The position numbers were made by a program, and so were the translations under genes. Below the pieces are notes generated by a model, which saw only the letters and a list, made by a program, of their open reading frames with translations, was not told the DNA's origin and searched no databases. From IMG/VR virus record IMGVR_UViG_3300045747_000527, positions 1-64,000 of that record: a stretch of DNA of 64,000 nucleotides; one strand, given 5' to 3'. Shown here one piece after another: positions 15,945 through 40,176 of this stretch; the stretch's first letter is position 1; each line of letters starts with the position of its first letter. The stretch is from a virus.

Positions 15945-16802
15945 TTAGGTCTTCACTTTCTGATTCAGCCCAGTACCTTCAGGCGCTGGCGCCATGTTTG
16001 ATAGATTGATCGTTCTGCCGCGAATGGTAGGTGCACGAAGTCCGCGACGAACTTCCTTGTTCGCAGGAGAACCCTCCGCAGCGCCTCCCCATGCGGGAGC
16101 GCCTTTAGGCAATCCGCGGGGTGTCTGCAGGTGTGCCGCCTTCGCAGTAAAGCTCAGCTCTACGGTCTTGAGCGGACTGATCGTTCGGCCAGACCAGTCG
16201 TGCGCCAGCGGCGTCACGGTATCATTCCACTGCATGTAGAACGGAACCACCACAGGGAAGTTGTGCCACTCCCCTTCCGTATCTCCCTGAACCAGAGCAC
16301 CGGGAGGCGTAACGGGGCCGAACTGGATACGTCGGCCGATCTCTTGGAAGGTGCCCTCACGAATAAGGGACTTACGGAGATTCCAGATTGTTCTGCCACA
16401 CTGCCAGCCGATGAACCGCGCCGTCTGTGGATACCGAGCCAAACAGTTGAGAACGAAGTTTCCCGGCACCAAGTCAGCGTGATGCTCCGACGCGTCGGTA
16501 GCACTCACGTGCGCCAACTCATCCAGAGTCAAGCCGCTGAAGTTCATTGCACCGAGGGCAATGGCTATGGCGGGCTTGTGCTTTATGGTGTCCAGGTTCA
16601 AGGGGTTCTCTTCCGTGATTACTATTTCAGTTTCCTCTATTTGGGGGGTCCAGTGGAAGAGGCCCGGCTCAGAAGTTTCCCAAATCGTCTGGAGGAAGCA
16701 CGTCATCACCTTGACCACGTAGTTCAACGGGTCGTTCAGATAGGTGTACTCCACCTCCTTGATCGGAAGGATAGCACTTCCTGGGATGGGTACGTTAGGC
16801 AT
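15945..16802 (-). CDS. Structural protein, tail terminator-like
   Basis: A 285-residue protein upstream of the sheath gene. Sequence without Cys clusters or membrane segments; the middle (IAIALGAMNFSGLTLD) and the run of long beta-type segments suit a tail completion or terminator protein, which caps the tube and sheath. The ATG giving MPNVPIPG is preferred; a longer reading would overlap the upstream gene by about 95 bases. Here the overlap is 8 bases. The role is inferred mainly from position. Confidence 0.45.
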   Translation of the reverse strand: MPNVPIPGSAILPIKEVEYTYLNDPLNYVVKVMTCFLQTIWETSEPGLFHWTPQIEETEIVITEENPLNLDTIKHKPAIAIALGAMNFSGLTLDELAHVSATDASEHHADLVPGNFVLNCLARYPQTARFIGWQCGRTIWNLRKSLIREGTFQEIGRRIQFGPVTPPGALVQGDTEGEWHNFPVVVPFYMQWNDTVTPLAHDWSGRTISPLKTVELSFTAKAAHLQTPRGLPKGAPAWGGAAEGSPANKEVRRGLRAPTIRGRTINLSNMAPAPEGTGLNQKVKT

Positions 16803-17190
16803 TGGGGGTCTTCGGCTTATCGCCGTAGGCGATGTAGTTATCGGACATCCGCGCCTGTTCCCTCGCCATCCAGCCGAGCGGCAATGCAAGGCCGCCTACT
16901 ATGGCGGGCGCGTAGTGGCGAAGCTTAGACATCTGGGCAGGGTCCATGTGCGTGAGGTATTTGCGCACCAGATGCGCTCCTCCGTGTCCCACGGCACCGC
17001 CGGCACCGGTCAAGCCCGCTACAATGAGGCCGCGCTTGAGTCGGTCCTTGGTGATGAACCTGTCCTCATCGGGTAGCTCCGTTGGCGGGAACTGGTAGCG
17101 GTCAGGCCCCATCGAGCGAACGTCTGCCGGAGAGAGCCCAGGGTCCGCAGCAATCTTTTGGAGTTCGTCGTAGAAGGATGCTGGGATCAT
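16795..17190 (-). CDS. Virion-block membrane protein with FYDELQKIA N-terminus
   Basis: Starts MIPASFYDELQKIA, one of a set of similar N-termini in this block. Two hydrophobic segments follow (residues about 54-72 and 92-108). It is short (131 aa) and probably a minor internal or membrane-associated virion protein. Overlaps the next gene by 8 bases. Confidence 0.55.
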   Translation of the reverse strand: MIPASFYDELQKIAADPGLSPADVRSMGPDRYQFPPTELPDEDRFITKDRLKRGLIVAGLTGAGGAVGHGGAHLVRKYLTHMDPAQMSKLRHYAPAIVGGLALPLGWMAREQARMSDNYIAYGDKPKTPNA

Positions 17191-18098
17191 CGTTGCCTCT
17201 GGTAGATGGCGAAAATGTCTGCGATGGGCTGCGTGGTCAGTGAGTCGATATCTTGGGCATTGGCAAAGTTACGGATAGGACTGGGCTCGAAGTCCCGCAG
17301 GTCTCCTAGCCGAATCGGTATCTGGTATTCTACCTCACTGCGGTCTATCTCGTGAAGGGTCAGCTCCTGGTGCACCACCGACCGCAATCGCTCTGTAGGC
17401 GTCGAGGTCACTACTCGCCACCTGCGGTTCTCGGATTCCACCAGCAGGTCCTTGGGCTTCAGCATCGGATAGTTGGGCAGCCGCGCCCTGGTGTCAGCCT
17501 GTAGCCGCTGGAGGTACGCCTGTGTTTGCACACTCTCCGTGTACGGATCGATCTGAACGTACACTTGAATTGGATCGAAATACCCACGAACAAAGCTGGT
17601 GTCATAGCAAGAGGCACAGCCGGACCTCCGCTTGGAGGACGTGAACCCTTTGCCCTTCTCTGGTCCGTCGTAGCAGAACTCACACCGCTTACCGAAGGTC
17701 CTCACCGGGAACAGGAAGCACGCTCTACCCGAGAACTCATTCCAGACAATGCGCTCTGCCCGCTGAATCTCCTGGGCTATGAGGTCAGGGTCTGGGTACT
17801 GGATGATGGACTCGGACTCGACGATGTTCTCCTGGTCCTTCTTCTCCACCGAGCGGATGCGGTAGAAAATCTGCCGCTGCTGGTGCATCGGGTTGACCTG
17901 GTTGTCGATGTACCGGTAGTGGTCCTCGAATGGGCCCGCGATAATGTCCCACGGGCCTTCAGGAGATTCAGAGCGGAGGACGTAGAACTGAAAGTCGTTG
18001 GGGTCAAGGGTAGTAGTTTCGATCTCCCAGAGGACCTCATAGAAGTCCAGGGAGAACGACCGCACCTTGGCGTTGACGATGTTCAGGTTCAGACCCAT
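17187..18098 (-). CDS. Structural protein with Cys-pair site (303 aa)
   Basis: Residues 1-100 look like a fibronectin-type beta sandwich (DFYEVLWEI...FQFYVLRSESPEGPW). In the middle, CEFC and CASC, about 24 residues apart, form a likely zinc site. The C-terminal third is beta-rich. It lies between tail and head genes and may be a neck or connector protein, but no family is recognised. Confidence 0.5.
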   Translation of the reverse strand: MGLNLNIVNAKVRSFSLDFYEVLWEIETTTLDPNDFQFYVLRSESPEGPWDIIAGPFEDHYRYIDNQVNPMHQQRQIFYRIRSVEKKDQENIVESESIIQYPDPDLIAQEIQRAERIVWNEFSGRACFLFPVRTFGKRCEFCYDGPEKGKGFTSSKRRSGCASCYDTSFVRGYFDPIQVYVQIDPYTESVQTQAYLQRLQADTRARLPNYPMLKPKDLLVESENRRWRVVTSTPTERLRSVVHQELTLHEIDRSEVEYQIPIRLGDLRDFEPSPIRNFANAQDIDSLTTQPIADIFAIYQRQR

Positions 18099-18104
18099 AC
18101 ATCC

Positions 18105-19079
18105 CTAGCAGTTCTCGTGATCGTAGCTGGCCTGCTTGTTCGAGTACTTGGCGCGTACCTTAGCCACCTGGGCTGCAGCCTCTTTCTTTTTGGCCGCCTC
18201 CAGGAACTTGAAATGCTGCTTAGATTCTCGGGTAAGCAGCTTTGGCTCAAGGTCTTTGAACCTTTGCGGGTCGATGTTAGGGAATTTTGCCCCCACAGCC
18301 CTAAGCTTTGCCATGAGGCCTTTATTTGCCGCCTTATCAGCCGCACGACGCAGAAGCTCAGGACTGATCGCTGTCTTCTCTAGCAAAAGCGCGCCACCAG
18401 TCTTCACCACCAGAGGCTGAGGCTCTTTCTTTTTCAGCAGAGCGTGGCCGGCAAGTAGGCCAGCCCCCAGGATACCTGCATGTGGCGCGACCATACGGGC
18501 AGCGCCGCCTACCCGAGCTGCGGTACTGAGGGCAGGGTTCTTGAGCATCTTCATGGCCATCCCTGGGCGCTCCATGAACTTTGCTCCGCCACTGGCGAGA
18601 CTCTTTCCTGCCGCGGCCCAACCGGTGCCCATGCTCTTCCCCATTTGCTTCGCAGAATTCACGACACCCCCACTGGCAGCCGCGGCTGCAGGTGCCGCTG
18701 CAGGAGCAGCACTGTGCACAGCAGCACCCATGCCGGGTATCGTTCCCTCGGCGGCACTCATGGGAGTCAGGGGGGTCAGCTTCGGCCTCAAGGCCCCACC
18801 TGGCATCGTACGACCCGAGGGTATGGGTGCTGCAGGGGCTGGTCCTGGCAGGGTCTTCTGGTGACTTAGGGGCACTGGTGGTGGCGTACCAGTAGGCCGC
18901 GCCGCTACTGACGCCTTAGCGGAGGGCTTCGCGGCCACTGTGGCTCCCGGACCCTGCTGTACAGGAAGCTGGCCTGCCTTCAGTTGTCGGCCAAAGGATG
19001 CCTCTTCCGGGTCGAACTCATCGAACCGACCAGCATCTGCGATCTTGTGCATCTTTCGTGCAAACTGTTCCAGATACAT
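18105..19079 (-). CDS. Low-complexity virion-block protein (324 aa)
   Basis: N-terminus FARKMHKIADAG resembles the shared FFDELxKIA start. Residues 45-150 are Ala/Pro/Gly-rich and likely disordered. Then comes GGAARMVAPHAG with a hydrophobic segment and HALLKKK, a module shared with two other proteins of this block. The C-terminal 80 residues are a charged helix. Starts in a one-base overlap (TAATG) with the upstream gene. Function unknown; probably an internal virion protein. Confidence 0.5.
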   Translation of the reverse strand: MYLEQFARKMHKIADAGRFDEFDPEEASFGRQLKAGQLPVQQGPGATVAAKPSAKASVAARPTGTPPPVPLSHQKTLPGPAPAAPIPSGRTMPGGALRPKLTPLTPMSAAEGTIPGMGAAVHSAAPAAAPAAAAASGGVVNSAKQMGKSMGTGWAAAGKSLASGGAKFMERPGMAMKMLKNPALSTAARVGGAARMVAPHAGILGAGLLAGHALLKKKEPQPLVVKTGGALLLEKTAISPELLRRAADKAANKGLMAKLRAVGAKFPNIDPQRFKDLEPKLLTRESKQHFKFLEAAKKKEAAAQVAKVRAKYSNKQASYDHENC

Positions 19080-19405
19080 TAGGCACCTATTCCATCAGAG
19101 AGAGTTAGTTGCGAGCGCAAGAATCCACGAGACTTGTTGGGGGCAGAGGAGGCCATTGTGGTGGCCGGCTTAGCCGCAGGCTTCAGGGCCTGAAGCCACT
19201 TACCCTGCTCCAGCATGGTGTTGTACTTCTCGCGGTTCGGGGAAATCTTCCCTTGCCGCGCGAGAGAGCCGAAGGCAGTACGGTTTTTGGCCAGGGCCGC
19301 CTCTACTCTACCAGCAGGGGCGCTGCTGATAGCTTTACGAACGACGCTGTCGGAGAGTGCTCCGATCTTAGTGAGCTCGTCAAAGAAGGCGTCCGTACTG
19401 AGCAT
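19079..19405 (-). CDS. Small virion-block protein with FFDELTKIG N-terminus
   Basis: A 108-residue basic protein beginning MLSTDAFFDELTKIG. Apart from this shared peptide it is Ala/Lys-rich and helical, without known domains. A candidate packaged protein. Confidence 0.55.
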   Translation of the reverse strand: MLSTDAFFDELTKIGALSDSVVRKAISSAPAGRVEAALAKNRTAFGSLARQGKISPNREKYNTMLEQGKWLQALKPAAKPATTMASSAPNKSRGFLRSQLTLSDGIGA

Positions 19406-19407
19406 AG

Positions 19408-19911
19408 CTACAGTCTCGAAGCAGCCAACTTGATGGCCGCATCCCTGATGTGTTCGGGGGCTCCCTCTACAGCCTGCATAGCTGTACAGAGCATCTCAGC
19501 CTGAGCCGTCTTCTCACCAACGCCCAGGGCGTCTCCATAGTCCGCAGACCTCTCCCCTGCTGTGCGCTTGGGGTGGCCGTCTACCTCTTCCATCAACGCT
19601 GGAGAGATAGACGGGCCCTCCATGGCTCCGCGGCCGAGGCGCTTGATGGCTGCAACCATGGTGTTGAGCGGGGCATCAGGAAGCTCTGCCGACTCTGTCT
19701 TCTTGGGCACGGCCTTCTCAGACACCGCGGCTGGAGCTGCTGCAGCCCCGGTAGGAGTCACCGGTTCCGCGGAGCCCTCCACAGCTACCTTCTGCAGGCC
19801 AAGGACTTCCCTCAAATCAGAAACAGAGAGGCCCGCGTAAAGGCGGCGCAAGTCAGCCGAGGACTGCTTGGTCAGGTCTTCCTGGTACAGGTTCTTCAAA
19901 AAGGTATCCAT
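19408..19911 (-). CDS. Unknown virion-block protein (167 aa)
   Basis: Helical N-terminus ending LGLQKVAVEG, an Ala/Pro linker (residues 45-75), and a helical C-terminal domain ending IKLAASRL. No known family. Separated from its neighbours by very short gaps in the same leftward operon. Confidence 0.5.
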   Translation of the reverse strand: MDTFLKNLYQEDLTKQSSADLRRLYAGLSVSDLREVLGLQKVAVEGSAEPVTPTGAAAAPAAVSEKAVPKKTESAELPDAPLNTMVAAIKRLGRGAMEGPSISPALMEEVDGHPKRTAGERSADYGDALGVGEKTAQAEMLCTAMQAVEGAPEHIRDAAIKLAASRL

Positions 19912-19924
19912 GATCTTGTCTCCT

Positions 19925-21022
19925 CTATTTTCCGCTCTTCAAAGCGTCGAGTTGGCTTCCCAAATCTTGTGATGTTTCGAGACCAGCGTTCTCCCGCTGC
20001 TTCATTCTATACTGCCGGACCTTCCTGATGATATAGGGCGCCGCCACAGCAGGTATGCCGAACTTCGAGGCGTAGGCCCCGAGCGCCCTACCACCCTGCA
20101 AAGCCCCGTGCCTGATGGCTTCCGCGGGCAATCCAGCTTTCCGCATGAGCTGGAGACCTTTGATCGAAGCATAGGCTTCCTCACCCAGCATCGGCACCAA
20201 CCCAAGAGCTGCTACTGCTGGTGCGAGCTTGGCCGAAGTACTATCGGGGTCACCCTTGGCGGCCATGTAGCTCGATCCGAGCATTGAGGCAACACCAAGG
20301 GGCATACCCGCACGACGAAATACTTTCGCGTAAGGCTTCTCACTGAACATCGCGTGCCCGAGCTCATGGGCAGCGACCATGGGGTTAGCCTTACCGGGCA
20401 TCGTTGTTACCCCGTGCTGCATCCCGTAGTCGATCACTCCCTCTGGAATACCCCGCCCACGCAAACCCAGTCTCTCTTTATCCTTGCCCAACTTCCCCGC
20501 GTAACCGCCCTTGGGCGTATGCTGCGCCTGCCCTCGGTTCCACTCTGGCGAGAAGACCACCCCACTGCTGTTCGGACGCACTACGCCCATCGTGCCGGTG
20601 CTGGGGTCTATCTCTACTGGGATGTTGTCCTTCGGGAACGCTGCACGGTACAGCTTTGCTGCTTCTTCCGCCGAAGTAGACTTGCCGACATCAGAGTCCT
20701 TGTTCAGCTTCTTGAGTATCTCTTTGCCGCCCCAACCGGCGAGGCTTCCACCAGTGGTGGCCAAGAGGGCTCCAGCACGTTCGTTGTTCTCGACCGCACT
20801 CTCATGCTTCTTCAGAGCCCCAATTTGATCTTCCCGAGATAGCCCCGGCTGCTGTAGGGCCGCCAGAGTTTTCTGCTCCGGGGCCGAACGTCCTCCCTCT
20901 TGTGAGCGATGGCGCAAGTACCCGAGACCACCAAGACCCGCGGTAGCCCCTACCGGGTACCACCACGGATCAATCTTGGCCTGCTTGATCTTAGCCAACT
21001 CGTCGAAGAAAGAAGGACGCAT
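19925..21022 (-). CDS. Membrane zinc metalloprotease with FFDELAKI N-terminus
   Basis: A 365-residue protein starting MRPSFFDELAKI. The active-site motif is HELGH (219-223) in the setting MVAAHELGHAMF, as in membrane-associated neutral zinc peptidases. Hydrophobic segments lie before it (about 85-96) and after it (about 240-265 and 280-300). In such enzymes the two His bind zinc and the Glu activates water. The shared N-terminal peptide and position suggest it is packaged in the virion, perhaps to act on host envelope proteins or during head assembly; this is inference. Confidence 0.65.
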   Translation of the reverse strand: MRPSFFDELAKIKQAKIDPWWYPVGATAGLGGLGYLRHRSQEGGRSAPEQKTLAALQQPGLSREDQIGALKKHESAVENNERAGALLATTGGSLAGWGGKEILKKLNKDSDVGKSTSAEEAAKLYRAAFPKDNIPVEIDPSTGTMGVVRPNSSGVVFSPEWNRGQAQHTPKGGYAGKLGKDKERLGLRGRGIPEGVIDYGMQHGVTTMPGKANPMVAAHELGHAMFSEKPYAKVFRRAGMPLGVASMLGSSYMAAKGDPDSTSAKLAPAVAALGLVPMLGEEAYASIKGLQLMRKAGLPAEAIRHGALQGGRALGAYASKFGIPAVAAPYIIRKVRQYRMKQRENAGLETSQDLGSQLDALKSGK

Positions 21023-21025
21023 TGG

Positions 21026-21982
21026 TCACTTATCCTCGTCCTTTTTGAGTGCGTGACGGGCGATGAGACCTGCTGTGAGAAGTCCTCCAGCAGCGAGAGC
21101 TGCGTGTGGGGCCAGGAGTCTTCCAGCGCCACCGATGCGGAAAGCGTGGGAGGCCCTCTCTGCCCCCGGCAGATTGTCAGTCAACATCTTCACGCCCAGC
21201 TGCATGCGCGGATTAGCAGTAGCGAACGCCCCTCTGACTACCGCCGAGCCGTCACCACCTCCGAAGATAGTACCTGCAGGGCTCGCCAGAGCTTCACCGG
21301 CGCCATGCCAGCCACCCCTCAAGTCTGAGAGTGCGTTTCGTACCTTCGCCACTACCCCGTGATCGTCTCGCAGTTTGTTGTGTGTTCCATGAAGGCTTTG
21401 GGGTACGAGCCCAGGTTTAGGCTGGGGCGTGGGGGCATAGTCACCGGGGGGCATATACCTCGCCCAACCCTTTGCCGCTGCCTCCTTACTACTACCCACG
21501 GAGAACCTCCTGGCCGCACTCTCGGTAAACCGGCCCCGGCCAAAGCCTCCATAAGTGGGCAGTACGCCTCGATCTTTTAGAAGGGCGTGGGCCTGTTGTA
21601 CCTCCCCGGCCACACTCCCAATTACGCCTCCGGCCACGCCCCCCAGGAGCCCCGCATGTCGCATAGGCGGCACGAAACCCTTTCTGTTTTTGACCGCCAG
21701 TGCTAGCGCGACCATCTCTCCTAGACCTACGCCGGCGCCCGCTCCAGCCAAAGCGCCACCCACCATCCCTTTAGCATACCGAGACATCTGTTGGCCCACC
21801 GGGGCAGTCTGCTGCGCGACAGACGCGGCAAGTTGACCGCGCAGCCAAGATTCCGGAACGACAGGGTACTTCTCCTCATCACTCAGGGCAATTTTCGTGA
21901 ACTCCTGGGTGTGCGCCAGCGCTTCCCCAGCAAGGTGGTCGTCCACAGCTGCCAGCGCGTACGCTGCAAGCTTAGTGGACAT
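21026..21982 (-). CDS. Glycine-rich membrane-type virion-block protein (318 aa)
   Basis: The ATG giving MSTKLAAY is preferred because a GGAGGAAAGG ribosome site precedes it; the longer frame upstream is inside the previous gene. Residues 29-35 contain EFTKIA. Several Gly/Ala hydrophobic stretches follow, and the end, GGAGRLLAPHAA...LIARHALKK, matches the module of the 18105-19079 protein. No enzyme motif seen. Confidence 0.5.
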   Translation of the reverse strand: MSTKLAAYALAAVDDHLAGEALAHTQEFTKIALSDEEKYPVVPESWLRGQLAASVAQQTAPVGQQMSRYAKGMVGGALAGAGAGVGLGEMVALALAVKNRKGFVPPMRHAGLLGGVAGGVIGSVAGEVQQAHALLKDRGVLPTYGGFGRGRFTESAARRFSVGSSKEAAAKGWARYMPPGDYAPTPQPKPGLVPQSLHGTHNKLRDDHGVVAKVRNALSDLRGGWHGAGEALASPAGTIFGGGDGSAVVRGAFATANPRMQLGVKMLTDNLPGAERASHAFRIGGAGRLLAPHAALAAGGLLTAGLIARHALKKDEDK

Positions 21983-23552
21983 GGACGACGGTTCCCTTTC
22001 CTCCACCCTTCGCCCCCTCTTCCTTCTTTGCCGCCGGCTTGGCTGCTTCGCCGCCCTCAGACTCGCCCCCGCCTTCAGCGGCAGGAGGAGCGGCCTCAGC
22101 AGGCGCAGCCTCAGCTGGTGCACCCGCTGGTGGCTGTCCCTGAGCCGCGGCTGCGTTGGGGTCACCGCCCATAGCTGCCGCGTTCGGGTCACCGCCAGGA
22201 AGGCCGCCCATTCCGGACGGGTCCTGCATCATCTGGCCGCTACCTGGGGTAGGAGCCATCATTCCAGGAGCTGCCATCTGAGCAGGGTCCTGGGACAGAT
22301 AATCGATCAGACCCTGACGGAACTGATTCATGCCCTGGAGCAGAGAAGTAGCCTGGGCCTGTGCTTCCTGTACCTGCTGCTGGCTGGACATGACCTGCTG
22401 GTGCAGCATCTGCGACTCACCCGAGGCCGCGGTCGCTTCTGTCCGTGCAGCATGGAGCTCTTCAGCTTGCTGCTGTACCGCAACCTCCTGCTCCTTCTGT
22501 ACTTGATCAAGCTGACCCTTCGCCAGCTCCGCAGCGGCCTGAGCCCGCTCAGCCACCTGCTGCGCATCCTCTGCCTTCTGCTGGTAGTGCTCTGCTTCAT
22601 TGCCCTTCTGGAGCATGTCGAGGATGCCCTCTAGTGGGTTGGGCACCAAGTCTTGATCTGGTGACACAAAAGGCTCAGCCGGCATAGGGTCCCCAACAGC
22701 GTCTCTGGTGGACACGGGCTGTGCCTGAGTCTCTGGGGAGTAGTTATCCTTCATCGGTTCGTCCTCTCCCACAGCAGTAGGGGAGTTCAGCTGAGCTGCC
22801 TTCTGCAAAACGCTGAGAACCCGAGCGACCTTAGCTTCAGGCTCACGGCTAGCCAAACCAGCTATCCCCTTGCCCGCGAAGTGGCCCGCTATGATCGAAG
22901 GAATCTTGTACCGACCCGGCATAGCCGAGCCAGCCATCCCACCTGCTGTGCTCAAGGTGTCCGAGAGCGCATCATCCGCACCGCCCTGTACACCACTGGA
23001 GATGGCGGTATCCCGGAGAGAGTCCAGGTCAATAGCCCCGAGGGCCTCACGTAGACGAGCCAGGGCTGCCGGATTGATACCAGCACCTTCCTTCTGAATC
23101 TCCGCGGTCTTAGGAGCAGCAGCCCGGTGGGCGTCTACGCCTTGCCCCGTCGCCTTGCCGAGCGCGTGACCAGCCAAAGCGCCCACACCGGCACGTACCG
23201 CTCGGTCAGCGGCCTGGCCCTTGCCAGCAACCAACCCTGTCACAGCACCCGCGGCGGTACCCAATGCCTTGCCCCACCGCTCACCTTTGGACGCACGCAG
23301 CTTCTCCCCGTGCTGAATCCTTTGGGCCACGGAAGAGCGGACACCCTGAAGGAGCCCTTTGTCTTCTGCGTCCTGCATGTCCTCAACGGATATGCCTCCC
23401 TCCGCCACCTTCTTGAGGAGGTCCACCTCGGTGGCCAATAGGCCGCCGGAAGCTAGCTTGACGCTGACGAAGTACTCAGCCGCCTTGATGAGAGGGATGG
23501 AGGTGTCCCGTCCAGGACGAAGCACGTCGTACAGAAGCTGTTCAGCGTTCAT
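21972..23552 (-). CDS. Coiled-coil internal or scaffold-like protein (526 aa)
   Basis: The N-terminal half is helical with glycine-rich hydrophobic parts. Residues about 310-400 form a long Gln/Glu/Ala coiled coil (KAEDAQQVAERAQAAAELAK and on). The C-terminal 120 residues are a disordered Ala/Pro/Gly/Met region with a GGDPNAAA repeat and end HVH. Such composition is common in scaffolding or ejected internal proteins. No homologue recognised. Confidence 0.5.
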   Translation of the reverse strand: MNAEQLLYDVLRPGRDTSIPLIKAAEYFVSVKLASGGLLATEVDLLKKVAEGGISVEDMQDAEDKGLLQGVRSSVAQRIQHGEKLRASKGERWGKALGTAAGAVTGLVAGKGQAADRAVRAGVGALAGHALGKATGQGVDAHRAAAPKTAEIQKEGAGINPAALARLREALGAIDLDSLRDTAISSGVQGGADDALSDTLSTAGGMAGSAMPGRYKIPSIIAGHFAGKGIAGLASREPEAKVARVLSVLQKAAQLNSPTAVGEDEPMKDNYSPETQAQPVSTRDAVGDPMPAEPFVSPDQDLVPNPLEGILDMLQKGNEAEHYQQKAEDAQQVAERAQAAAELAKGQLDQVQKEQEVAVQQQAEELHAARTEATAASGESQMLHQQVMSSQQQVQEAQAQATSLLQGMNQFRQGLIDYLSQDPAQMAAPGMMAPTPGSGQMMQDPSGMGGLPGGDPNAAAMGGDPNAAAAQGQPPAGAPAEAAPAEAAPPAAEGGGESEGGEAAKPAAKKEEGAKGGGKGTVVHVH

Positions 23553-23571
23553 GGTAATCCTTTCAGATTTT

Positions 23572-24015
23572 CTACGTGTGGATCAAAACTGAGTAGCTCG
23601 GTCCCAGTAGCTGCACCTGCTCTGCAACGATGCTGGTCACCACCACTTCGGTCACCGTCTTGTTCGCCGTCGTGGAGAACCCTAGGAGGCTATTCGCCGT
23701 ACCAGTGCTCTTCACCACCTGTGCCGCGGTCATAATCGCCAAGCACGGCTGCTTGCTGTCATACCCGTAGTTCCGCAGAATCGCGGTAGCCAGCGCGGAA
23801 TCAGCGGCTTGTACCTGACCTAATATCTGCCGAGGACTGAGGCCTGCACCCGTGGCGTCCGCGAAAGTAACCGTTCGGTCTCCACCAGCTGTGGTGATGA
23901 TGAGGGTCAGCCCGTGCAGCCCGGAGGTAAGCAACGGCAGTGGCTTGCTTTGAACGACACCGTTCAGGAAGTCCACCAGTGCTTCGGGAGTGTTGAAAGT
24001 TTTGAACGTGTACAT
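23572..24015 (-). CDS. Structural protein with GTAN..LGF module (147 aa)
   Basis: ATG after AGGAGATC. The whole protein is one copy of the module that occurs twice in the tail sheath: strand pair with TLIITTAGG, GLSPRQILGQV, and GTANSLLGF. The N-terminal ALVDFLNG also resembles DLLRFLNG in the sheath. It sits in the head-to-tail part of the operon and may be a decorating or connector protein. Confidence 0.55.
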   Translation of the reverse strand: MYTFKTFNTPEALVDFLNGVVQSKPLPLLTSGLHGLTLIITTAGGDRTVTFADATGAGLSPRQILGQVQAADSALATAILRNYGYDSKQPCLAIMTAAQVVKSTGTANSLLGFSTTANKTVTEVVVTSIVAEQVQLLGPSYSVLIHT

Positions 24016-24023
24016 TTGATCTC

Positions 24024-24536: not shown

Positions 24537-24537
24537 G

Positions 24538-24822: not shown

Positions 24823-25535
24823 GACTTCTTTCCCTTCTTCTTCTTGGGTTGCCTATCGCCAACATGCTCGGTCTCCGCGAACTCTTCCGCGGCTGGCTCT
24901 TCAACAGGCGTCTCTTCCTGCGCGGTGGTATCCAAGGAAATCTGCGGAACCTCGTCCGGCTGTGCCCCTCTAGCGGCACAATTCGCACAAAGCGCACTAT
25001 CCTCCGTCGCAGGGAGCTCACGGCACTGGATACAGACCCGTGGGCCCGCCTCGTCTGGGACTGGAAGCTCCGCCGTGACCTTCTCGGAATCCGGAGTCTC
25101 CACTACTCCTTCAAACTCCGGTGTTTCCAGCTGGCGCACCAGCTCATCGAGGCCCGTGACACCTTCAGGTACCACAGACGTAGGTGCCTCGCCCTGGGGC
25201 ACCAAGGGGGAAAGGGTAACTGCCAGAGGGGGCTCTACAGACGTGGGAGGCTTGCCTGGCACAAAATAGAGCAGCTGGCCGGCGTCGTTGGAGTCGATGC
25301 GTACTTGATCTGGACGCACGATTGATATCTCACCAAGTTGAACCTTGGCGAGCAACGAGACCTTGTTGTCTTCGAACTCTTTGGCCGTAATCAGGAGTGG
25401 CACACGCGGGAGCACTCGTTTCCCGAGAACCCAGGCGACAGCCCGGTGTTTCACCACAGCACTTTGGCGCTGCAGGCGTGAGGTAACGGCCCTCACCATG
25501 TTCTCGACTCGGTAGAAATTCCTGGGTTCAAGCAT
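24819..25535 (-). CDS. Zinc-pair structural-operon protein (238 aa)
   Basis: The ATG giving MLEPRNFYRVEN is chosen for its GAGGAGG ribosome site. Residues 1-90 look like a compact beta domain; then a Pro/Glu-rich linker; CIQC and CANC, 15 residues apart, make a zinc ribbon near residue 185; the end is acidic, then Lys-rich. First gene after the major capsid gene and its terminator. Role unknown. Confidence 0.5.
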   Translation of the reverse strand: MLEPRNFYRVENMVRAVTSRLQRQSAVVKHRAVAWVLGKRVLPRVPLLITAKEFEDNKVSLLAKVQLGEISIVRPDQVRIDSNDAGQLLYFVPGKPPTSVEPPLAVTLSPLVPQGEAPTSVVPEGVTGLDELVRQLETPEFEGVVETPDSEKVTAELPVPDEAGPRVCIQCRELPATEDSALCANCAARGAQPDEVPQISLDTTAQEETPVEEPAAEEFAETEHVGDRQPKKKKGKKS

Positions 25536-25555
25536 TGGAACGGACCTCCTCATAA

Positions 25556-25592
25556 AGCAAAAGCGCCGAGCGCCAAGAATGGCACCCGGCGC
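25556..25592 (-). terminator. Terminator after the major capsid gene
   Basis: On the minus strand GCGCCGGGTGCC pairs along its full 12 bases with GGCGCTCGGCGC using two G-U pairs, followed by TTTTGCTTT. On the plus strand both G-U positions become mismatches. Partial termination here would make capsid mRNA more abundant than mRNA for the following genes. Confidence 0.82.
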
Positions 25593-25625
25593 CTCTGCTA
25601 CAGCTTACTACGTTCGGCGCTGCTG

Positions 25626-26747
25626 CTAGTAGATTTCGACGTGCGGGAACGTCAAACCTGCATCAACACGATTGTTGACCGCGCCCAGATCTTCCTCTGC
25701 CTTCGGAGTCACGCTGGCAACGATGCTGTTGCTGTCGTTCAGCGAGCTGTCACCAGAGTAGGTCTCCAGCTTACGGACAGACGCGATGTTGATGATCGCG
25801 CTGCCGATGTCTTCCCATGCCTGCCACGTGATCAAGTTCGCGATCTTGTCGATGTAGAACTTGGTGTTGTTCAGGATGTAGAAGCGACCGAAGAAGTCAG
25901 GCTTCGTGAAGCAGTAGATGTTGCCGGGACGGAGGATGTCCGTCTTGATCGTGCGGCAGTACGCACGGCCCATCAACATGTTGTACTTGAAGCCCTCGAT
26001 CAGGGTCTCAGACTGGATACGGTTACCCTGGTCTTCCACCGTCCACTGGAGCAAATCGTCCCAGTCAACCTCGGTCAGCAAGACCATCTCGGCGCGAAGC
26101 CGATTGCCGTCCAGCATCTTGAAGAGGTTGACGAAGTCCGGCCGCTGCACTGGCAGAGCCACCGCGGAGTCCGCCGAAGCGGTACGAGCGAGCGCACCCT
26201 TGCGGATGGAGAACTCGACCGTGGTTCCGATGGTGGTGGTGTTCAGGACGGTGTTGCCGACGGTGCCACCGTTTGCTTCGAGTTGCAGAGCCTGGACAGC
26301 CGCTTCGATTGCAACCGAGAACTCACGGTCCTCAATCTCCTGGATGTCCTTGACGCTGTTGTCCTCGATGATCTTGGTGATCGGCATTTCATACGCCAAG
26401 AGTTCCTGCTCCGTCTTCTCGAACTTCTCCGAGGAGATGGTGAAGAAGGGGACCTCGGCGCGGGGCGCGCGGATGAAGCGTGCAGTGGGCTGACCACGGA
26501 AGGTCAAGACTTGCGCCTTGCTCTGTGGCTCGACGTCCACGATCTTCACGAGCGTATCGTGGTTGACCGAACGCTGACAATCAGCGCGGGTAATCTGTTG
26601 CGGTGGGACGATCTTCCTGTGGAAAGAGACCTCACGAAGACGGTCACGGATGTACGTTCCACCGTATTCTGCGATCTTGTCTTTGCCCTCTTGGGAGTCC
26701 AGCTTCTGCGAGAAGAGGTCGTTCACGAGCCTGCTTGAAGGATTCAT
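25626..26747 (-). CDS. Major capsid protein
   Basis: A 373-residue protein with HK97-fold features: N-terminal helix region, the long E-loop-like stretch FRGQPTARFIRAPRAEVPFF, a spine-helix segment IEDREFSVAIEAAVQALQLE, and C-terminal axial-domain strands (RPGNIYCFTKPDFFGRFYIL). ATG follows AAGGAGAA. It lies downstream of the decoration-like gene and protease and has its own terminator, as expected for the most abundant virion protein. DKIAEYGG near residue 23 could be a maturation cut site. Confidence 0.8.
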   Translation of the reverse strand: MNPSSRLVNDLFSQKLDSQEGKDKIAEYGGTYIRDRLREVSFHRKIVPPQQITRADCQRSVNHDTLVKIVDVEPQSKAQVLTFRGQPTARFIRAPRAEVPFFTISSEKFEKTEQELLAYEMPITKIIEDNSVKDIQEIEDREFSVAIEAAVQALQLEANGGTVGNTVLNTTTIGTTVEFSIRKGALARTASADSAVALPVQRPDFVNLFKMLDGNRLRAEMVLLTEVDWDDLLQWTVEDQGNRIQSETLIEGFKYNMLMGRAYCRTIKTDILRPGNIYCFTKPDFFGRFYILNNTKFYIDKIANLITWQAWEDIGSAIINIASVRKLETYSGDSSLNDSNSIVASVTPKAEEDLGAVNNRVDAGLTFPHVEIY

Positions 26748-26796
26748 TGCATTTTCTCCTTGTTGATTTCTGTGTGTGCTTGCTCTGACCCGACCT

Positions 26797-27246
26797 CTAG
26801 AAAAGAGTCTGGATGAAGCGAAGTTTTTGACCGTTGCGAGCCGGGGTACGTGTGCAGTACCCGATGATGACACCCGAACCTGCCTGACGAATCAGGCCGA
26901 TGCGAGATTGACCCTGGTACGTGACCGCACCAATCTTGAGTGCGTCGCCAGTGACGATGCTGGTGGCCGTCATGACCATGGTGTCTGCCTCATAGGTGGG
27001 CCCCATGATGACAGTCATCTTGCCCGAGGCCTGGACGTCCATACGTCCGCGCTCCGAGAAGCCGACCCAACCAACGCCGCCGGCGCTAGCACGGACGAGT
27101 TTGTAGTTGTCATCGACGAAGTAGAACTCTCCGTCCAGGTATGGGTTGACTTGTGTCGGATCGATGTTGGCTTTGGAAGCCACGGTGAAGTCCCTGCGGA
27201 GAAGTCCCTGCAGTTCTGTCACCATTTCGAAATTGACCGTTGACAT
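26797..27246 (-). CDS. Capsid decoration-like protein (149 aa)
   Basis: A beta-rich small protein directly upstream of the major capsid gene. Repeated Gly-containing strands (KMTVIMGPTYEADTMVM, GYCTRTPARNG) and no helices resemble head-stabilising or decoration proteins. Position gives most of the support. Confidence 0.5.
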   Translation of the reverse strand: MSTVNFEMVTELQGLLRRDFTVASKANIDPTQVNPYLDGEFYFVDDNYKLVRASAGGVGWVGFSERGRMDVQASGKMTVIMGPTYEADTMVMTATSIVTGDALKIGAVTYQGQSRIGLIRQAGSGVIIGYCTRTPARNGQKLRFIQTLF

Positions 27247-27281
27247 TGTTTAGCTCCTTCAGATCTTTTGACGTTTCAGGT

Positions 27282-27683
27282 TTAGTCGGCCAGTCCGCCG
27301 AGCAGGAATGTTTCGAGTTGAGACGCGCCAGTTCCACCGCCGACATCGTCGGCAGCAATCTTGGCGAACGAGCCATCGGGTGCAGTCATCTCAACAGCCT
27401 CTTCGATGGCGTCGAGTGACCTACCCTGAGCAACCGCCTCCTTGATGGTGGCGAAGTGCTCTTCCATGGAGAGACCGCGGTTGACGCCCTTTTCGTGCAT
27501 CTTGCCCGCAACCTTTGCCATGCGCTCGCTGAGGCGGTACTGCCCCAGTTCCAACTCTGCCGCCGCAAGTTTCTCGGAAAGCGTGTCCCTTTCGGAGGCG
27601 AGCTTCCTGAGGACCTTCGGCACTTCGGCGTAGACCTGCGCAGCCTGGGCCGTGCTGATCTTCACTTGTTCTTTGGTCTCCAT
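27282..27683 (-). CDS. Coiled-coil protein, small scaffold-like (133 aa)
   Basis: Residues 20-60 form a heptad-rich helix (LRKLASERDTLSEKLAAAEL), then a helical domain and a flexible Gly-rich end. ATG after GGAGAAGAG. Located in the head assembly cluster. A scaffold or assembly helper is likely but unproved. Confidence 0.5.
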   Translation of the reverse strand: METKEQVKISTAQAAQVYAEVPKVLRKLASERDTLSEKLAAAELELGQYRLSERMAKVAGKMHEKGVNRGLSMEEHFATIKEAVAQGRSLDAIEEAVEMTAPDGSFAKIAADDVGGGTGASQLETFLLGGLAD

Positions 27684-27697
27684 GTTCTCTTCTCCTT

Positions 27698-28723
27698 CTA
27701 GAACCCGCCGCCAATTGGCATTGCGGCCTGTTGCCCCACACCCATTCCCGATGTCTTTTCCTGCTTGGCGAGAAGCTCTTTCAGCTTCTCTGCTTTCTCT
27801 TTGGCCTCAGGGGAAGCCCCTTCAGCGCATCCCTCCTCTGCTACCTTGATGAGGAGGGCCCTGGCAGCCGCGGCGGTCTTGACCGAAGAGATCTTCGTTC
27901 CAGCTTGCGCCGTTTCCGACAGGTTGTTTTGAAGAACAGGGTCCGTTGACGTCACCTGAGCTGGTTCTGAAAGAACCTCACCCATCTGTGCTTTTGGCTC
28001 TGCCTTCGCTTGCCGTTTCGTGTAGTTCGTTGCTGCTTCGTTCGAACTCACCAGGGCTGCCTGCGATGCTGCAGGACCTGGAAGAGCTGGAACTCCTTCG
28101 CCGGAGGCCGAAACCGCCGGGGACATATCCTCTGCCACCTTCTTCATGACACTCAAGACCCGACCAACTACGCCGGCTACCTTGGTGCGCTCTTGCAGAG
28201 CTGCAGAGCCCTGCTTGAGAACATCCTTGTCCGCCCAGCTCTCATCACCACCGGGCTTCTTGGCCTCGTTGTTGTCGAGAGAGGTAGCGGGAGCGGTGTT
28301 ACCGGCCTCAGAAGCAGGCGCCGCACCTGGGTTCTTGGGGATGACATTCTGGCTGGTGGCCTGGCCGGTCTCGTAGTTCTGGGTACCTGGCGTGGGTCCA
28401 CCCACGTTGGTCTCCAGAGCGTTGGGGCCGGTGCCTGGGCCCACTTCCTCCGCCAGCTTCACGCGCGTATTGATGAACTCAATGGCGCTCGCGAGTTTGT
28501 TGACGTAGGCAGTGTTGACGGAAGAGGTCTTCTCTCCCTGACTTTGTTCGTTGCGGTCGGGGGTCGTGTTGGGGTTGGGGGAGGCCGGCTTAGGCGATCC
28601 CTTACCCGCTGAAGCGATGTCCGTGTCTTCGCCGTCCGCCGAAGAATCCGCCTCTGCGAGTTTCACCCGCCGTGCAGACTCTTGGAGCGTCCGCTGGACC
28701 ATACTCTGTAGTGAGAAATTCAT
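27698..28723 (-). CDS. Internal or scaffold-like protein (341 aa)
   Basis: The ATG giving MNFSLQSMVQRTLQ follows CGGAGGA; the longer frame has no such site. Mostly disordered Ser/Ala/Pro/Asn composition, broken by repeated short helices with K-hydrophobic-A-E (RRVKLAEAD, TRVKLAEEV, MKKVAEDM, LLIKVAEEG). These could be protease cut sites in a scaffold that is digested. No family recognised. Confidence 0.5.
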   Translation of the reverse strand: MNFSLQSMVQRTLQESARRVKLAEADSSADGEDTDIASAGKGSPKPASPNPNTTPDRNEQSQGEKTSSVNTAYVNKLASAIEFINTRVKLAEEVGPGTGPNALETNVGGPTPGTQNYETGQATSQNVIPKNPGAAPASEAGNTAPATSLDNNEAKKPGGDESWADKDVLKQGSAALQERTKVAGVVGRVLSVMKKVAEDMSPAVSASGEGVPALPGPAASQAALVSSNEAATNYTKRQAKAEPKAQMGEVLSEPAQVTSTDPVLQNNLSETAQAGTKISSVKTAAAARALLIKVAEEGCAEGASPEAKEKAEKLKELLAKQEKTSGMGVGQQAAMPIGGGF

Positions 28724-28743
28724 TTGGGAATCCTCCGATTTGA

Positions 28744-29016
28744 TCAAAATGAAGGCGGTTCGGCAGTTTGCGGAGGCACGTCTGAGGTGTCCACAGGTTG
28801 AGCGTAGTTTTGTCGCTGACCGAAGTTGCCCGCCGGCTTTACCAGTTTTGGACTCAAGGAACCAGGGGCAGTCGGCGCCTTCGCGAACTGAGTAGACGGT
28901 AGCTTTGAACGAGGGCTCCCCACGGTCTTTGGAGACCATGGCGAATTTGGATCTCTCGCCTGTGCTGCCATCTTGTCCAGCTCGTCAAAGAACGCCGACC
29001 TGCTGATCCCAGTCAC
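28744..29016 (-). CDS. Small protein with AFFDELDKMA N-terminus (90 aa)
   Basis: GTG start four bases after the previous stop gives MTGISRSAFFDELDKMAAQ, a clear copy of the shared N-terminal peptide. The rest is Pro/Ser/Lys-rich and disordered. The ribosome site is weak, so translation may be coupled to the upstream gene. Confidence 0.5.
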   Translation of the reverse strand: MTGISRSAFFDELDKMAAQARDPNSPWSPKTVGSPRSKLPSTQFAKAPTAPGSLSPKLVKPAGNFGQRQNYAQPVDTSDVPPQTAEPPSF

Positions 29017-29020
29017 GTTG

Positions 29021-29839
29021 CTACTTGTTCCAATTGACCGGGTAGCCGTTGGCTTCCAGCAACTTGAGAGCCTGCTCCTCAACCACGAGGTCGAGTGCCG
29101 ACGCCGACTTCTCCTGCGTTTCCGCGGGTGCTTCTTCGGTCTGTGGAGCCGTGACGTTTCCTTCGGCATCCACGTACCCTGCTGTCTTCAGCATGTCGAG
29201 TGCGCGCTGCTCGATGAGGGTCTCCAGAGCCGAGCCCTCCTTCTTCTTGTCCTCCGCCTTGCGCTTGGCTGAGAATCCGCCGGCCAGAGCGCCAGCAGCA
29301 AATCCGCCAGCACCAGCGGCAACGTGCCCTGCGTTAACCTTCTTGGCTGCGCCAGCGATTGCTCCACCAGCCTTCTTGCCTGCTCCCGCAACCGCGGTGC
29401 CGGCCTTGCCAGCCTTCTCGCGAATCATCTTGAGGAAGTCGCCCTTGCCCGCTTGCTTCTCAATGAGGTCCAGCTCCTGAACCATCGCGTGGGCCATGGT
29501 GCGGCCGAGGAAATCAGCCTCAGCGAACTTCGCTTGAGCTTCCTTCGACTCGTCTTTCTTCTCTTCCTTCTTCTCTTCCTTCGACTCATTGGGGGAAGAT
29601 TCGCCCGAGGACTCTTCGCCCTTGGTCTCTTTCTTCTCTCCCGCAGGAGGAGGGGGAAATTCCGCTGTCTTGAACAGCTCACTGACCATCGCAGCGATTT
29701 GGTCATCACTGCACTTGTCCAGGTCGATCCCTTCTTGTGCCGCGAGCTTCACTAGAAGTTCGGCAGCCGCTGTCTTCTGTAGATCTTCACCGGCATCGGT
29801 CTGTCCCGTGCCATAGATCTGCGCGAGTTTTTCGTCCAT
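29021..29839 (-). CDS. Scaffold-like acidic/Ala-rich protein (272 aa)
   Basis: The N-terminal 70 residues are helical, followed by a Glu/Lys-rich region (residues 65-100), a Gly/Ala hydrophobic part with two membrane-like segments, and a C-terminal pair of similar helical units (ALETLIEQRALDMLKTAGY and LDLVVEEQALKLLEANGY). This duplication is visible by eye. Placed just after the protease gene, where phage scaffolds often are. Confidence 0.5.
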   Translation of the reverse strand: MDEKLAQIYGTGQTDAGEDLQKTAAAELLVKLAAQEGIDLDKCSDDQIAAMVSELFKTAEFPPPPAGEKKETKGEESSGESSPNESKEEKKEEKKDESKEAQAKFAEADFLGRTMAHAMVQELDLIEKQAGKGDFLKMIREKAGKAGTAVAGAGKKAGGAIAGAAKKVNAGHVAAGAGGFAAGALAGGFSAKRKAEDKKKEGSALETLIEQRALDMLKTAGYVDAEGNVTAPQTEEAPAETQEKSASALDLVVEEQALKLLEANGYPVNWNK

Positions 29840-29922
29840 GATGGCTCTCCTAACGATCCATTGTTGTTGTGATACTGATCAGTGTTTGCATCACCGAGGT
29901 ACGAAGCCTCTCGCGCTCACCG

Positions 29923-31767
29923 TCATGGTTTCTTGTACCCTACTGTAGACGCATGCAGTCCAGAAACCAATCTGGAAGGCAATGTGGACCCCTGCTGATG
30001 CAAAGCCGCCAACGCGGCCAAGAGCATCATGGCCTTCGGGTAATCCGCGGCAGTAGCAGTCAGGGGGCCGACAGGTTCACGAGAGCCCATCATGGCCTGC
30101 TGCCTCTCCCAGTCAGCCATTGCTGAGAGTGCGTACGCACCCCCGACCGCCCCGAGCAGCACTGCTGGGTTGATTTTGGCAACACCGGCGGCTTCCTTCG
30201 TGAGCAGATCTTGCTTGTGTACGGCAGACCAAAGCTCTGCGTCGCTACCGACACATTGCCCTGCGTTCCGTAAACAGTGAGTGGCTCCATCTAGATACCC
30301 ATTGTACGCTGCAGAAATCTTCTGCAGGAAGGGGGTCTCACAATCAAAGTCAGGACGGCTGGCCGCTGTCTTGGGCGCCCCCATGACTGTAATGCGAATA
30401 ACTCGCCTCTGGGCTACTGGTTCCAGTACCGACCGGTCTTCCAGATGAGGCATCAAGAGTTTCTTCAGCAAGCCACTGAAGAACTCAGGACCCATAGGCA
30501 CGGATGAGTCTGTCTCCGCTACCGGTGGGAACACCTTGTTCTCAGCGTCCATCTTGTCCGCCAACTCGGGGCCGTTGCCTTTGCCCATCTGAATGATGGT
30601 GATTCGCTGAAACTCCCGCGGCCGGAGAAGAATGCCCATGGAGGACACGGTGGAAAGCGCCTGGGACAGGTCGCACTTCCCCAGTCGGTCAAGAACATCA
30701 TTCGGCAGGTCATTGGCTTCGTGGTCGATGTTGACTGACTTGCCACCGAACTGAGTGGGGACGATGTCCTTTACGATCTCACTGGCCTTAACCTTTGCAG
30801 CCTGCTTCACCCGCGGGCGCAGAGTACCCACCACACCAGTCTGAAGAGGGTTCACGGCATCCCTGACGTCCGATGCTGACGCGGCCTTTTGCATGCCATC
30901 CTCGCCGTAGGTCTGTTCCGCCACGTACCAGGATGGGACCGTGGTCATCGCCGGGCTCGCCAGCTTGGCCATAACCTTCGCTGTCTTGTCCGCACCTATG
31001 AAAACGAACGAGATATCGAAGAACTTGGGATAGTCGTTGATGGCGCACGCACGCCTGCCGTCTGGCCTGATCTTATTGAGGCCCTTGCGCAGACACTCAC
31101 AGTAGTCGTCGCGAGTGATCGAGATACCGCGGATGGCATTCTTCTTGTGGAACGCCAGAACAGCAGCGCCCACATTCTTATGCTGGCTCGGGTCAAAAGT
31201 CTGCTGAGCCTCCCGGAACTTCGAAAGATCACAGCAGATACTGCACCGGTCGAACGGTACCCGACAACCCATGCTGACATCGCTGAAGATTCCTCGGTCG
31301 ATCTTATCGCAGACACTGGTGGCTCCCACCATGTCCGCCTTCCGCCGGTCAATACAAATGACCAGCTCAACCCGCTTCATGGCATCGTTCCACACCGACA
31401 GAGTCACGGTCCCAAACGCCTTCGCGGGGTCCTTGTTCTGATGGTGGGTAAACGGCAACGCCTGGTAGAAAGTCTCGTAGCCCCAATCCGGGCCCTTATG
31501 GATCAGAGCGATCTCTGGAAAGTCATCACCGTTGATGTTACTACCCCAGTACTCCCCAGCTCCCATGGCGTTCACCAGAACGTGAATCTTGCCTGGGTCC
31601 TGCTTAACGCCTTCGAGGTGATTCTGCACCTCGGACAAGAGCGGAGCTGCCGTCTTGCCCATTCCGAAGAACGCCGCAGCCTGGGCTATCTCACCTGGGC
31701 GAAACACCTGCACGAGGCGCTCCCCTGAGTGGGAGACGGCGTTGAACTGGCAGAGCTTAGTGATCAT
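29923..31767 (-). CDS. Prohead maturation protease, enlarged
   Basis: A 614-residue protein. The N-terminal 200 residues show the pattern of capsid-maturation serine proteases: GAGEYWGSNINGD, then FTHHQNKDPAKAFGTV with the candidate catalytic His (108 or 109), VELVICID, and VSMGCRV with the candidate Ser (165). A Cys cluster after the Ser (168, 175, 178, 179) and CEC further on may bind metal. The remaining 400 residues are not recognised and include a hydrophobic C-terminal stretch. The protease digests scaffold and N-terminal peptides in the prohead. Position before scaffold and capsid genes agrees. Confidence 0.68.
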   Translation of the reverse strand: MITKLCQFNAVSHSGERLVQVFRPGEIAQAAAFFGMGKTAAPLLSEVQNHLEGVKQDPGKIHVLVNAMGAGEYWGSNINGDDFPEIALIHKGPDWGYETFYQALPFTHHQNKDPAKAFGTVTLSVWNDAMKRVELVICIDRRKADMVGATSVCDKIDRGIFSDVSMGCRVPFDRCSICCDLSKFREAQQTFDPSQHKNVGAAVLAFHKKNAIRGISITRDDYCECLRKGLNKIRPDGRRACAINDYPKFFDISFVFIGADKTAKVMAKLASPAMTTVPSWYVAEQTYGEDGMQKAASASDVRDAVNPLQTGVVGTLRPRVKQAAKVKASEIVKDIVPTQFGGKSVNIDHEANDLPNDVLDRLGKCDLSQALSTVSSMGILLRPREFQRITIIQMGKGNGPELADKMDAENKVFPPVAETDSSVPMGPEFFSGLLKKLLMPHLEDRSVLEPVAQRRVIRITVMGAPKTAASRPDFDCETPFLQKISAAYNGYLDGATHCLRNAGQCVGSDAELWSAVHKQDLLTKEAAGVAKINPAVLLGAVGGAYALSAMADWERQQAMMGSREPVGPLTATAADYPKAMMLLAALAALHQQGSTLPSRLVSGLHASTVGYKKP

Positions 31768-31770
31768 GAA

Positions 31771-32460
31771 CTATCTCTCGTAGTCACGGCGCTCGGAGTC
31801 ACCCTTTGGGTTGCCCTGTTCGTCAAACCACTGATGCGTAGATGCCCTGATGGACGGGTCGAAATTCTGAACAGTGTTGAGCACCTTATTGTTGGTCACG
31901 GGGCCCTCTTTGACGCTGCCCATGCTGGTGCCGAATACATCCAGCAGCGACTTACTGTTGCCTCTCCCAACCATCTTGCTTTGGGTATCTGCAAGCATCT
32001 TTGCCGTATCTGGCGGCATTGTGAGGCCTTGTTCCGTGCGCCCGTACGCCAGGATGTTTCTGACTAAGGAACCGGCAACCAATGGGTCCGAAGACAAGCT
32101 GGGAGAAAGGTGTCGGACGGACTGAAGGACCATCTCCACTTCCCTAGGATCTTCCTCCTTCAGAGAAGGATGAGCCTGCATCATGGCTGAGTGTTCGGCA
32201 CGATGGTGTAGCCCACTGGTCGCAGCGTCGTACAGAGAGTCGCCGCCCTTACCAAGCAGGGAAACGCCGCCCACTATGCCCGCCCCAAGTGCGCCGTTAC
32301 CTGTCATCTTGCCCGCGTTATACGCAAAGCGCTCACCTGTACCCGGCACGGCCTTCTTGAGCGCACCAGGCAGATCTTTCTCCGCCCCCAAAGTCAGCCC
32401 ATGTTTCAAGGCATCCCAGACGCCCGCTTCCTTCAGGAAATCCTCAACTGGATTGCTCAT
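31771..32460 (-). CDS. Virion-block protein (229 aa)
   Basis: Starts MSNPVEDFLKEAG. A hydrophobic Gly-rich segment lies at residues 57-72 (ALGAGIVGGVSLLGKG), followed by a helical domain. The ATGA overlap with the upstream gene shows operon coupling. No family recognised. Confidence 0.5.
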   Translation of the reverse strand: MSNPVEDFLKEAGVWDALKHGLTLGAEKDLPGALKKAVPGTGERFAYNAGKMTGNGALGAGIVGGVSLLGKGGDSLYDAATSGLHHRAEHSAMMQAHPSLKEEDPREVEMVLQSVRHLSPSLSSDPLVAGSLVRNILAYGRTEQGLTMPPDTAKMLADTQSKMVGRGNSKSLLDVFGTSMGSVKEGPVTNNKVLNTVQNFDPSIRASTHQWFDEQGNPKGDSERRDYER

Positions 32461-32807
32461 TGGTAATACCCTCCTTGATCTCCTCCACCAGACAGCCGCG
32501 CCCGGACGGCCTGGACTGGGGAAGAGCCTACAACTTTGCCTGCTCCGTACATTGCTCCGGCATAGGGAGCTAGTCGGGCTGCGCCGCCAGCAGCACGCCC
32601 GAGGCGGCTACCAGTGCCCTCCAAGTGTTCCGCGACTGCTGTGGAGCCTTTGCGCCCAGCCTCCCAGAGGTGGCCAGCTCCTTTGGCCGCAGTGCCTGCG
32701 GCGGAGGCCCCATGGCCCAAGATGCTTTTCACAGCCGCGCCAAGACCGGGGGCTTCGGCGATCTTCTCGAACTCACTCAGGAACCCAGCAACTGTTACTC
32801 GATCCAT
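32457..32807 (-). CDS. Small virion-block protein with FEKIAEA N-terminus (116 aa)
   Basis: Starts MDRVTVAGFLSEFEKIAEA, close to the shared FFDELxKIA type. The rest is Gly/Ala-rich and contains GGAARLAPYAGAMYGAGK, a relative of the APHA module of two larger proteins in the block. Likely a packaged small protein. Confidence 0.5.
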   Translation of the reverse strand: MDRVTVAGFLSEFEKIAEAPGLGAAVKSILGHGASAAGTAAKGAGHLWEAGRKGSTAVAEHLEGTGSRLGRAAGGAARLAPYAGAMYGAGKVVGSSPVQAVRARLSGGGDQGGYYQ

Positions 32808-32816
32808 TGTGTCTCC

Positions 32817-32864
32817 AGATCATGACACGCTACGGCTACTACCACTGTAGCCGAAGTGCATCAA
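32817..32864 (+). repeat. 48-bp hairpin repeat, copy 2
   Basis: One mismatch against copy 1 near the start of the window. It contains the same GGCTAC/GTAGCC hairpin. Here it lies between two leftward genes; the stop codon of the upstream one is inside the repeat end. Same orientation on the plus strand as copy 1. Confidence 0.9.
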
Positions 32865-40163: not shown

Positions 40164-40176
40164 GTGATCCCTCTCG

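Follow-up and report, generated by a model that had tools for sequence, protein, structure and literature searches.

The internal proteins and Alt of phage T4 carry an N-terminal capsid-targeting sequence (CTS) and are processed by the prohead protease gp21 (PMC9026906, PMC3012670); targeting resides mainly in the N-terminal part of the CTS, processing takes place at residues 8 and 10, and the internal proteins are basic (PMC9026906). In phage P1, DarB has an N-terminal head-packaging signal for injected proteins, the first 30 residues of which suffice for a reporter (PMC9024508). The ejection proteins of SPN3US and phiKZ bear propeptides that are removed by the prohead protease (gp245), which recognizes the motif A-x-E and processes itself (PMC10052503, PMC5694885). 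Here, we describe a short peptide of the type FFDELxKIA (referred to as the tag) at the start of several proteins encoded in the first 64 kb (the window) of the 191,220-base IMG/VR phage record IMGVR_UViG_3300045747_000527. This peptide is real, shared, start-proximal, and modular and sits on unrelated basic carriers. We consider it likely to be a cleavable CTS composed of a targeting half, F-F-D-E, and a prohead-protease site, L-x-K-x-A.

The head and tail genes of the window run leftward. The first-pass annotation of this sequence had named six leftward proteins of the virion block with related N-terminal peptides, and all six are present and read as given, with SFYDELQKIA, QFARKMHKIA (the weakest copy), AFFDELTKIG, SFFDELAKIK, AFFDELDKMA, and GFLSEFEKIA for the starts at 17190, 19079, 19405, 21022, 29016, and 32807, respectively (Table 1). 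It had missed a divergent seventh copy in 50863-51744, three homologues of which read FVDELNKTA, FVDELEKLA, and FHAELDKTS, and a profile scan of all open reading frames (ORFs) found further copies beyond the window at genome positions 96784-97347, 119429-119677, and 119674-119943. The tag therefore extends beyond the virion block.

A capsid-protein query retrieved 259 related stretches from viral contigs, several of which belong to records of 180-196 kb. Another 3 stretches are in binned metagenome assemblies, whose bins are an unsafe guide to the host. The nearest named phages are Salmonella phage Arash and Vibrio phages D69, D148, and D181 at about 27-37% protein identity (27-37% for the capsid protein and 32-35% for the prohead protease), and phage G is a weaker relative than these. 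A profile search in other phages, which the first-pass annotation had suggested, found the tag in related genomes, a family of uncultured phages of ~180-195 kb. Across 74 distinct instances, its consensus is [A/S/G]-F-F/L/Y/W/V-D-E-L-E/Q-K-I-A/G/S, with F kept in 65, D in 64, E in 74, L in 64, K in 73, I in 57, and the final A/G/S in 72. A regular expression for the tag, applied to the ORFs of the window and 80 relative loci with near-identical loci counted separately, gave 49 matches in the first 40 residues, 3 elsewhere, and 1 in antisense ORFs. The back-translated pattern matched 57 times across 16 whole records (the phage and relatives, one strand per record), and the reversed pattern did not match in these same records. 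Similarly, matches of a 12-column profile in five genomes are nearly all start-proximal with a single antisense match, and most copies lie 3-15 residues from the start codon in the scan of all ORFs. At several tag positions the codons differ and the residues remain constant, so the peptide itself is under selection. The five full genome sets hold 8 copies (this phage, plus the divergent copy of 50863-51744), about 11, about 12, 3, and 3, with only clear N-terminal copies counted for the two lowest. Twelve further records contain the exact pattern; nine of them encode a relative of the protease, and the remaining three are fragments of 17-61 kb. A text search of open-licence papers found no mention of the peptide strings, so an earlier description elsewhere is possible.

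The second half of the tag, L-x-K-x-A, corresponds to a motif that is over-represented in the head block, defined by position as all leftward genes in 16795-33799. In this block, hydrophobic-x-K-x-A occurs 36 times, whereas shuffling that preserves composition gives 11.5 (z 7.4) and at most 22 in 1000 shuffles. Other leftward genes of the window have 20 occurrences vs 12.6 (z 2.2). This surplus is due to 38136-40184 and 53317-54528; with these two set aside, the count falls to background level. A hand-made list of head proteins, drawn up after the first counts, yields 34 vs 10.6 occurrences and still 30 vs 10 with the tags removed. The cleavage motifs of T4, SPN3US, and phiKZ show no enrichment in head proteins by the same test (z 0.9 for T4 L/I-x-E). 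As an independent check, head-block proteins of the cultured relatives share the K-x-A enrichment (26 vs 3.9 in Arash and 33 vs 4.0 in D181, with other proteins near background), and their consensus is L-E-K-x-A-S/A. Nearly all relatives retain the K-I-A of the major capsid protein, and its place is taken by K-E-A-G in the cultured phages. Homologues of the core/scaffold-like protein 29021-29839 in deep relatives contain an internal tag-like site, AHAYVDELKKIA.

The enzyme that would cut at this motif is encoded in the same block. The AlphaFold model of the product of 29923-31767 is nearest to T4 gp21 (5jbl; Z 9.4, rmsd 2.8, 141 residues; next chain 5.9), and Foldseek gives a probability of 0.98-0.99 and an E of 4e-3, with herpesvirus proteases further down. 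Pfam has no name for this protein, and Peptidase_S78 (PF04586) has no match in the genome. Residues H109 and S165 are invariant in protease relatives out to phage G and are, by the roles known in the family, the putative active-site His and Ser. Furthermore, K38-x-A40 and K268-x-A270 are conserved in nearly all of 27 relatives and flank the confident core of the model (about residues 42-256), a pattern that self-trimming at both ends of the protease would give. In relatives, at least 7 of 40 protease ORFs contain inteins at several different sites, e.g., directly after the conserved HH (L030) or directly after the conserved Ser-Met-Gly (L011).

We infer from these sequences that cleavage takes place at K-x-A, that the tag confers targeting, and that the cargo is injected. 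As the prohead forms, the carrier would be drawn in by the first half of the tag, [ASG]-F-F-D-E, which would attach to the internal core or the inner face of the shell; the gp21-like protease would cut after L-x-K-I-[AGS], as it would cut the capsid, core, and protease precursors at L-x-K-x-A, and the freed basic carrier would remain in the head with the DNA and probably be delivered into the host at infection. The tag could instead be only a sequence that the prohead protease prefers to cut, without any part in targeting, the cargo entering by other contacts. Such a role would agree with the core, protease, and capsid proteins, in which L-x-K-x-A recurs and no F-F-D-E stands ahead of it, and with the homologues of 32457-32807, in which the upstream peptide differs and K-x-A is kept. 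Nevertheless, we regard it as unlikely, since the conservation of F, D, and E on unrelated small cargo (65, 64, and 74 instances vs 73 for K) exceeds what a K-x-A rule needs and since the family of 31771-32460 keeps both an NPVEEFL start and a K-x-A end across a spacer of nothing to about a dozen residues, as if two functions had been joined.

The proposed target-then-process layout, the roughly ten N-terminal residues common to diverse basic carriers, and a prohead protease of the same predicted fold all liken the tag to the T4 CTS, and at the level of sequence the T4-like logic put forward by the first-pass annotation is borne out by the gp21-like protease, the head-enriched motif within the tag, and the unrelated basic carriers. 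Unlike in T4, the peptide is another one, the apparent cut rule is L-x-K-x-A rather than L/I-x-E, and the predicted carriers form 41 clusters across the clade and include putative enzymes as well as fusions with a tag at the junction. The tag is thus not the CTS of T4 by sequence or descent, given that the T4 cleavage motif is not enriched, but seems to function in the same way. The Dar proteins of P1 yielded no consensus (PMC9024508), whereas one consensus marks many proteins here. With SPN3US and phiKZ, this phage shares the N-terminal propeptide, whose cleavage is presumed here, and a prohead protease that would process itself, but most propeptides of those phages are 111-254 residues long, and A-x-E is not enriched here.

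Clustered without the tag (blastp E<=1e-3), 114 distinct tagged ORFs yield 41 clusters of bodies with no detectable similarity beyond the tag, in agreement with the first-pass remark that the proteins otherwise differ. The most widespread carrier is 28744-29016 with 27 distinct relatives; relatives of the 16795-17190 body have the tag N-terminally in 11 cases and internally in 2, and no homologue of 18105-19079 was found among the relative loci examined. Tagged bodies are strongly basic, with a median isoelectric point (pI) of 10.4 vs 6.8 (Mann-Whitney p 5e-13) and a pI above 9 in 92.5% vs 32%. The distance of some tagged genes from the head block would suit an address label that points elsewhere, e.g., to the host membrane, the tail, or a replication compartment. 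We consider this very improbable, because most tagged genes of the window are in the head block beside the protease whose apparent site the tag contains and because basic bodies suit packing with DNA. Nor are the tagged proteins unusually membrane-like, with strongly hydrophobic segments in 10 of 36 vs 30% of other genes. A kinase-like match in L094 (score about 18) is probably due to chance, and a tag-like start in L035 (15461-16978) seemed internal only through over-extension of the ORF.

The carrier 19925-21022 contains AHELGH at residues 218-223, and we label it a putative metalloprotease because HExxH is invariant in 11-12 aligned homologues, most of which have a tag-like start. Its peptide begins with FFDELAKI as noted in the first-pass annotation but ends in KIK rather than KIA. 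In the predicted structure, residues 1-21 have a pLDDT < 50 compared to 70-90 for most of the body, so that the tag lies outside the confident part. Foldseek found no meaningful match for this model (best E 0.27), and tblastn against phage records gave no match. The tag is predicted to be helical in this model, at low confidence, which together with the KIK ending would fit an uncleaved docking peptide that tethers carriers to capsid, portal, or core and stays on in the mature virion. Two observations make such permanent docking quite unlikely. One is the small residue (A/G/S) that follows K-I in 72 of 74 instances as in the head-block motif. The other is the presence of junction tags in fused proteins of relatives, at residue 441 in L110, 99 in L011 and L031, and 110 in L044, which suggest that the fused parts are separated; in L110, the tag at 441 stands between an InPase part and a protein that elsewhere occurs on its own with a tag.

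InPase domains occur in tagged proteins of L099, L101, L103, and L110 and an SNF2 helicase domain in L097, and DUF5661 is found on tagged proteins of relatives as well (Pfam); none of the window's own tagged proteins matched a polyvalent-type domain in Pfam. Packaging and injection of InPase-bearing polyvalent proteins had been predicted from independent evidence, and putative metallopeptidases and helicases belong to that set (PMC5512222). The carriers resemble them in their InPase, helicase, and metallopeptidase types, with Pfam matches in relatives only, and differ from them as mostly short separate or two-part proteins with a common N-terminal tag. We do not class them as polyvalent because the scanned tagged proteins have at most one named enzymatic domain per chain.

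Several observations weigh against a cleavable CTS. The metalloprotease copy of the window, lacking a small residue at its end, misfits the cut rule, and both the copy behind a GTG start and the FARKMHKIA copy are weak. Deeper relatives have only about 3 clear N-terminal copies, and F-F-D-E-L did not appear in the head-block proteins examined from Arash and D181, which share only the cleavage-like motif. F-F-D-E-L is also missing in some homologues of 32457-32807 and in some metalloproteases (L016, L022, and L031), so the tag is dispensable for a given protein. Finally, the motif-rich 38136-40184 and 53317-54528 lie outside the head block, and the hand-made comparison, whose list postdates the first counts, included them neither among the head proteins nor among the others; both may belong to the head after all.

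Two further types of N-terminal peptide occur in the window. The pattern of the second, MDxFLxxLYxEExEKxA, has 15 coding and 0 antisense matches, and that of the third, NPVEEFL with a variable spacer and K-x-A, has 24 coding matches and 1 antisense match. A start resembling the third type is found on some phage sigma factors. This phage encodes a sigma-70-like protein at genome positions 118657-119508 (L003:17658-18425, minus strand), directly downstream of two tagged genes, and homologues in G001, G003, and G011 start with NP(V/A)xxFL...KxA as in the 31771 family. The sigma factor may therefore be packaged as well. A broader reading, which we find quite possible without expecting it, is that the peptide classes (FFDELxKIA, MDxFLxxLYxEExEKxA, and NPxEEFL..KxA) mark most injected proteins of the clade, including a metalloprotease, InPase proteins, an SNF2 helicase, and the sigma factor, and that cargo can also be strung together as polyproteins, with a tag at every junction, that the prohead protease separates inside the head.

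Among the other genes of the window, 53317-54528 (minus strand) encodes 403 residues with six hydrophobic-x-K-x-A sites (0.9 expected), is conserved in four relatives, and, far from the head block, is possibly an unrecognised head protein; 38136-40184 (minus strand) encodes 682 residues with five such sites (1.1 expected) and has no match in Pfam or PHROGs. Within the virion block, 41340-47519 (minus strand) had been considered as a tape measure, which we reject: it is a single-chain RNA polymerase of 2059 residues with beta- and beta'-like parts, which are separate genes in Arash, has NADFDGD at about residue 1392, and is without the tag. By eye, 18105-19079, 21026-21982, and 32457-32807 (all minus strand) have in common a C-terminal-type GGAxRxxAPHA (or APYA) stretch with a hydrophobic segment after it and are otherwise different from one another.

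Table 1. Tag copies, head and tail genes, and intein-bearing protease ORFs (window positions unless a locus is named; sites are hydrophobic-x-K-x-A).
Position	Strand	Feature	Details	Basis
12616-15933	-	Tail sheath		
17149-17175	-	Tag FYDELQKIA	Start of 131-aa basic protein 16795-17190, body pI 9.3	
19038-19064	-	Weak tag FARKMHKIA	Start of 324-aa Ala-rich protein 18105-19079	Below profile cut-off
19361-19387	-	Tag FFDELTKIG	Start of 108-aa protein 19079-19405, body pI 11.1	Profile
19408-19911	-	Second tag type	MDTFLKNLYQEDLTKQSS; one family, variable length	
20984-21010	-	Tag FFDELAKIK	Start of 365-aa putative metalloprotease 19925-21022	Profile
25626-26747	-	Major capsid protein	K-I-A conserved at residues 24-26	phrog_2522 E 4e-9
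27282-27683	-	Head-block protein	133 aa; three sites (0.4 expected)	
27698-28723	-	Head-block protein	Three sites (0.8 expected)	
28966-28992	-	Tag FFDELDKMA	Start of ~90-aa Pro-rich protein 28744-29016, GTG start	Profile
29021-29839	-	Core/scaffold-like protein	Five sites (1.2 expected)	
29923-31767	-	Head maturation protease	T4 gp21-like predicted fold	PHROGs E 5.8e-7
31771-32460	-	Third tag type	MSNPVEDFLKEAG	
32757-32783	-	Tag FLSEFEKIA	Start of 116-aa protein 32457-32807	Profile
32861-33799	-	Head-block protein	Seven sites (0.7 expected)	
34715-36550	-	Terminase large subunit		
51691-51717	-	Divergent tag LVAELEKTS	Start of 293-aa protein 50863-51744	Homologue comparison
L011:2919-5873, L030:2815-6834, L074:4058-6922, L082:2953-6852		Intein-bearing protease ORFs	Also in L055, L063, L086	

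Packaged proteins have been identified in SPN3US-like giant phages and in P1, but no common address label was evident there, which leaves T4 as the standing example. If our interpretation is true, this widespread uncultured clade would add a new pair of short peptide and protease for loading proteins into phage heads, and the cargo of uncultured phages would become readable from sequence alone. The apparent prohead-protease specificity, L-x-K-x-A, is common to cultured phages and so can be checked there. Dozens of small basic proteins without a known function would then gain a testable role in early host take-over, anti-restriction, or entry.

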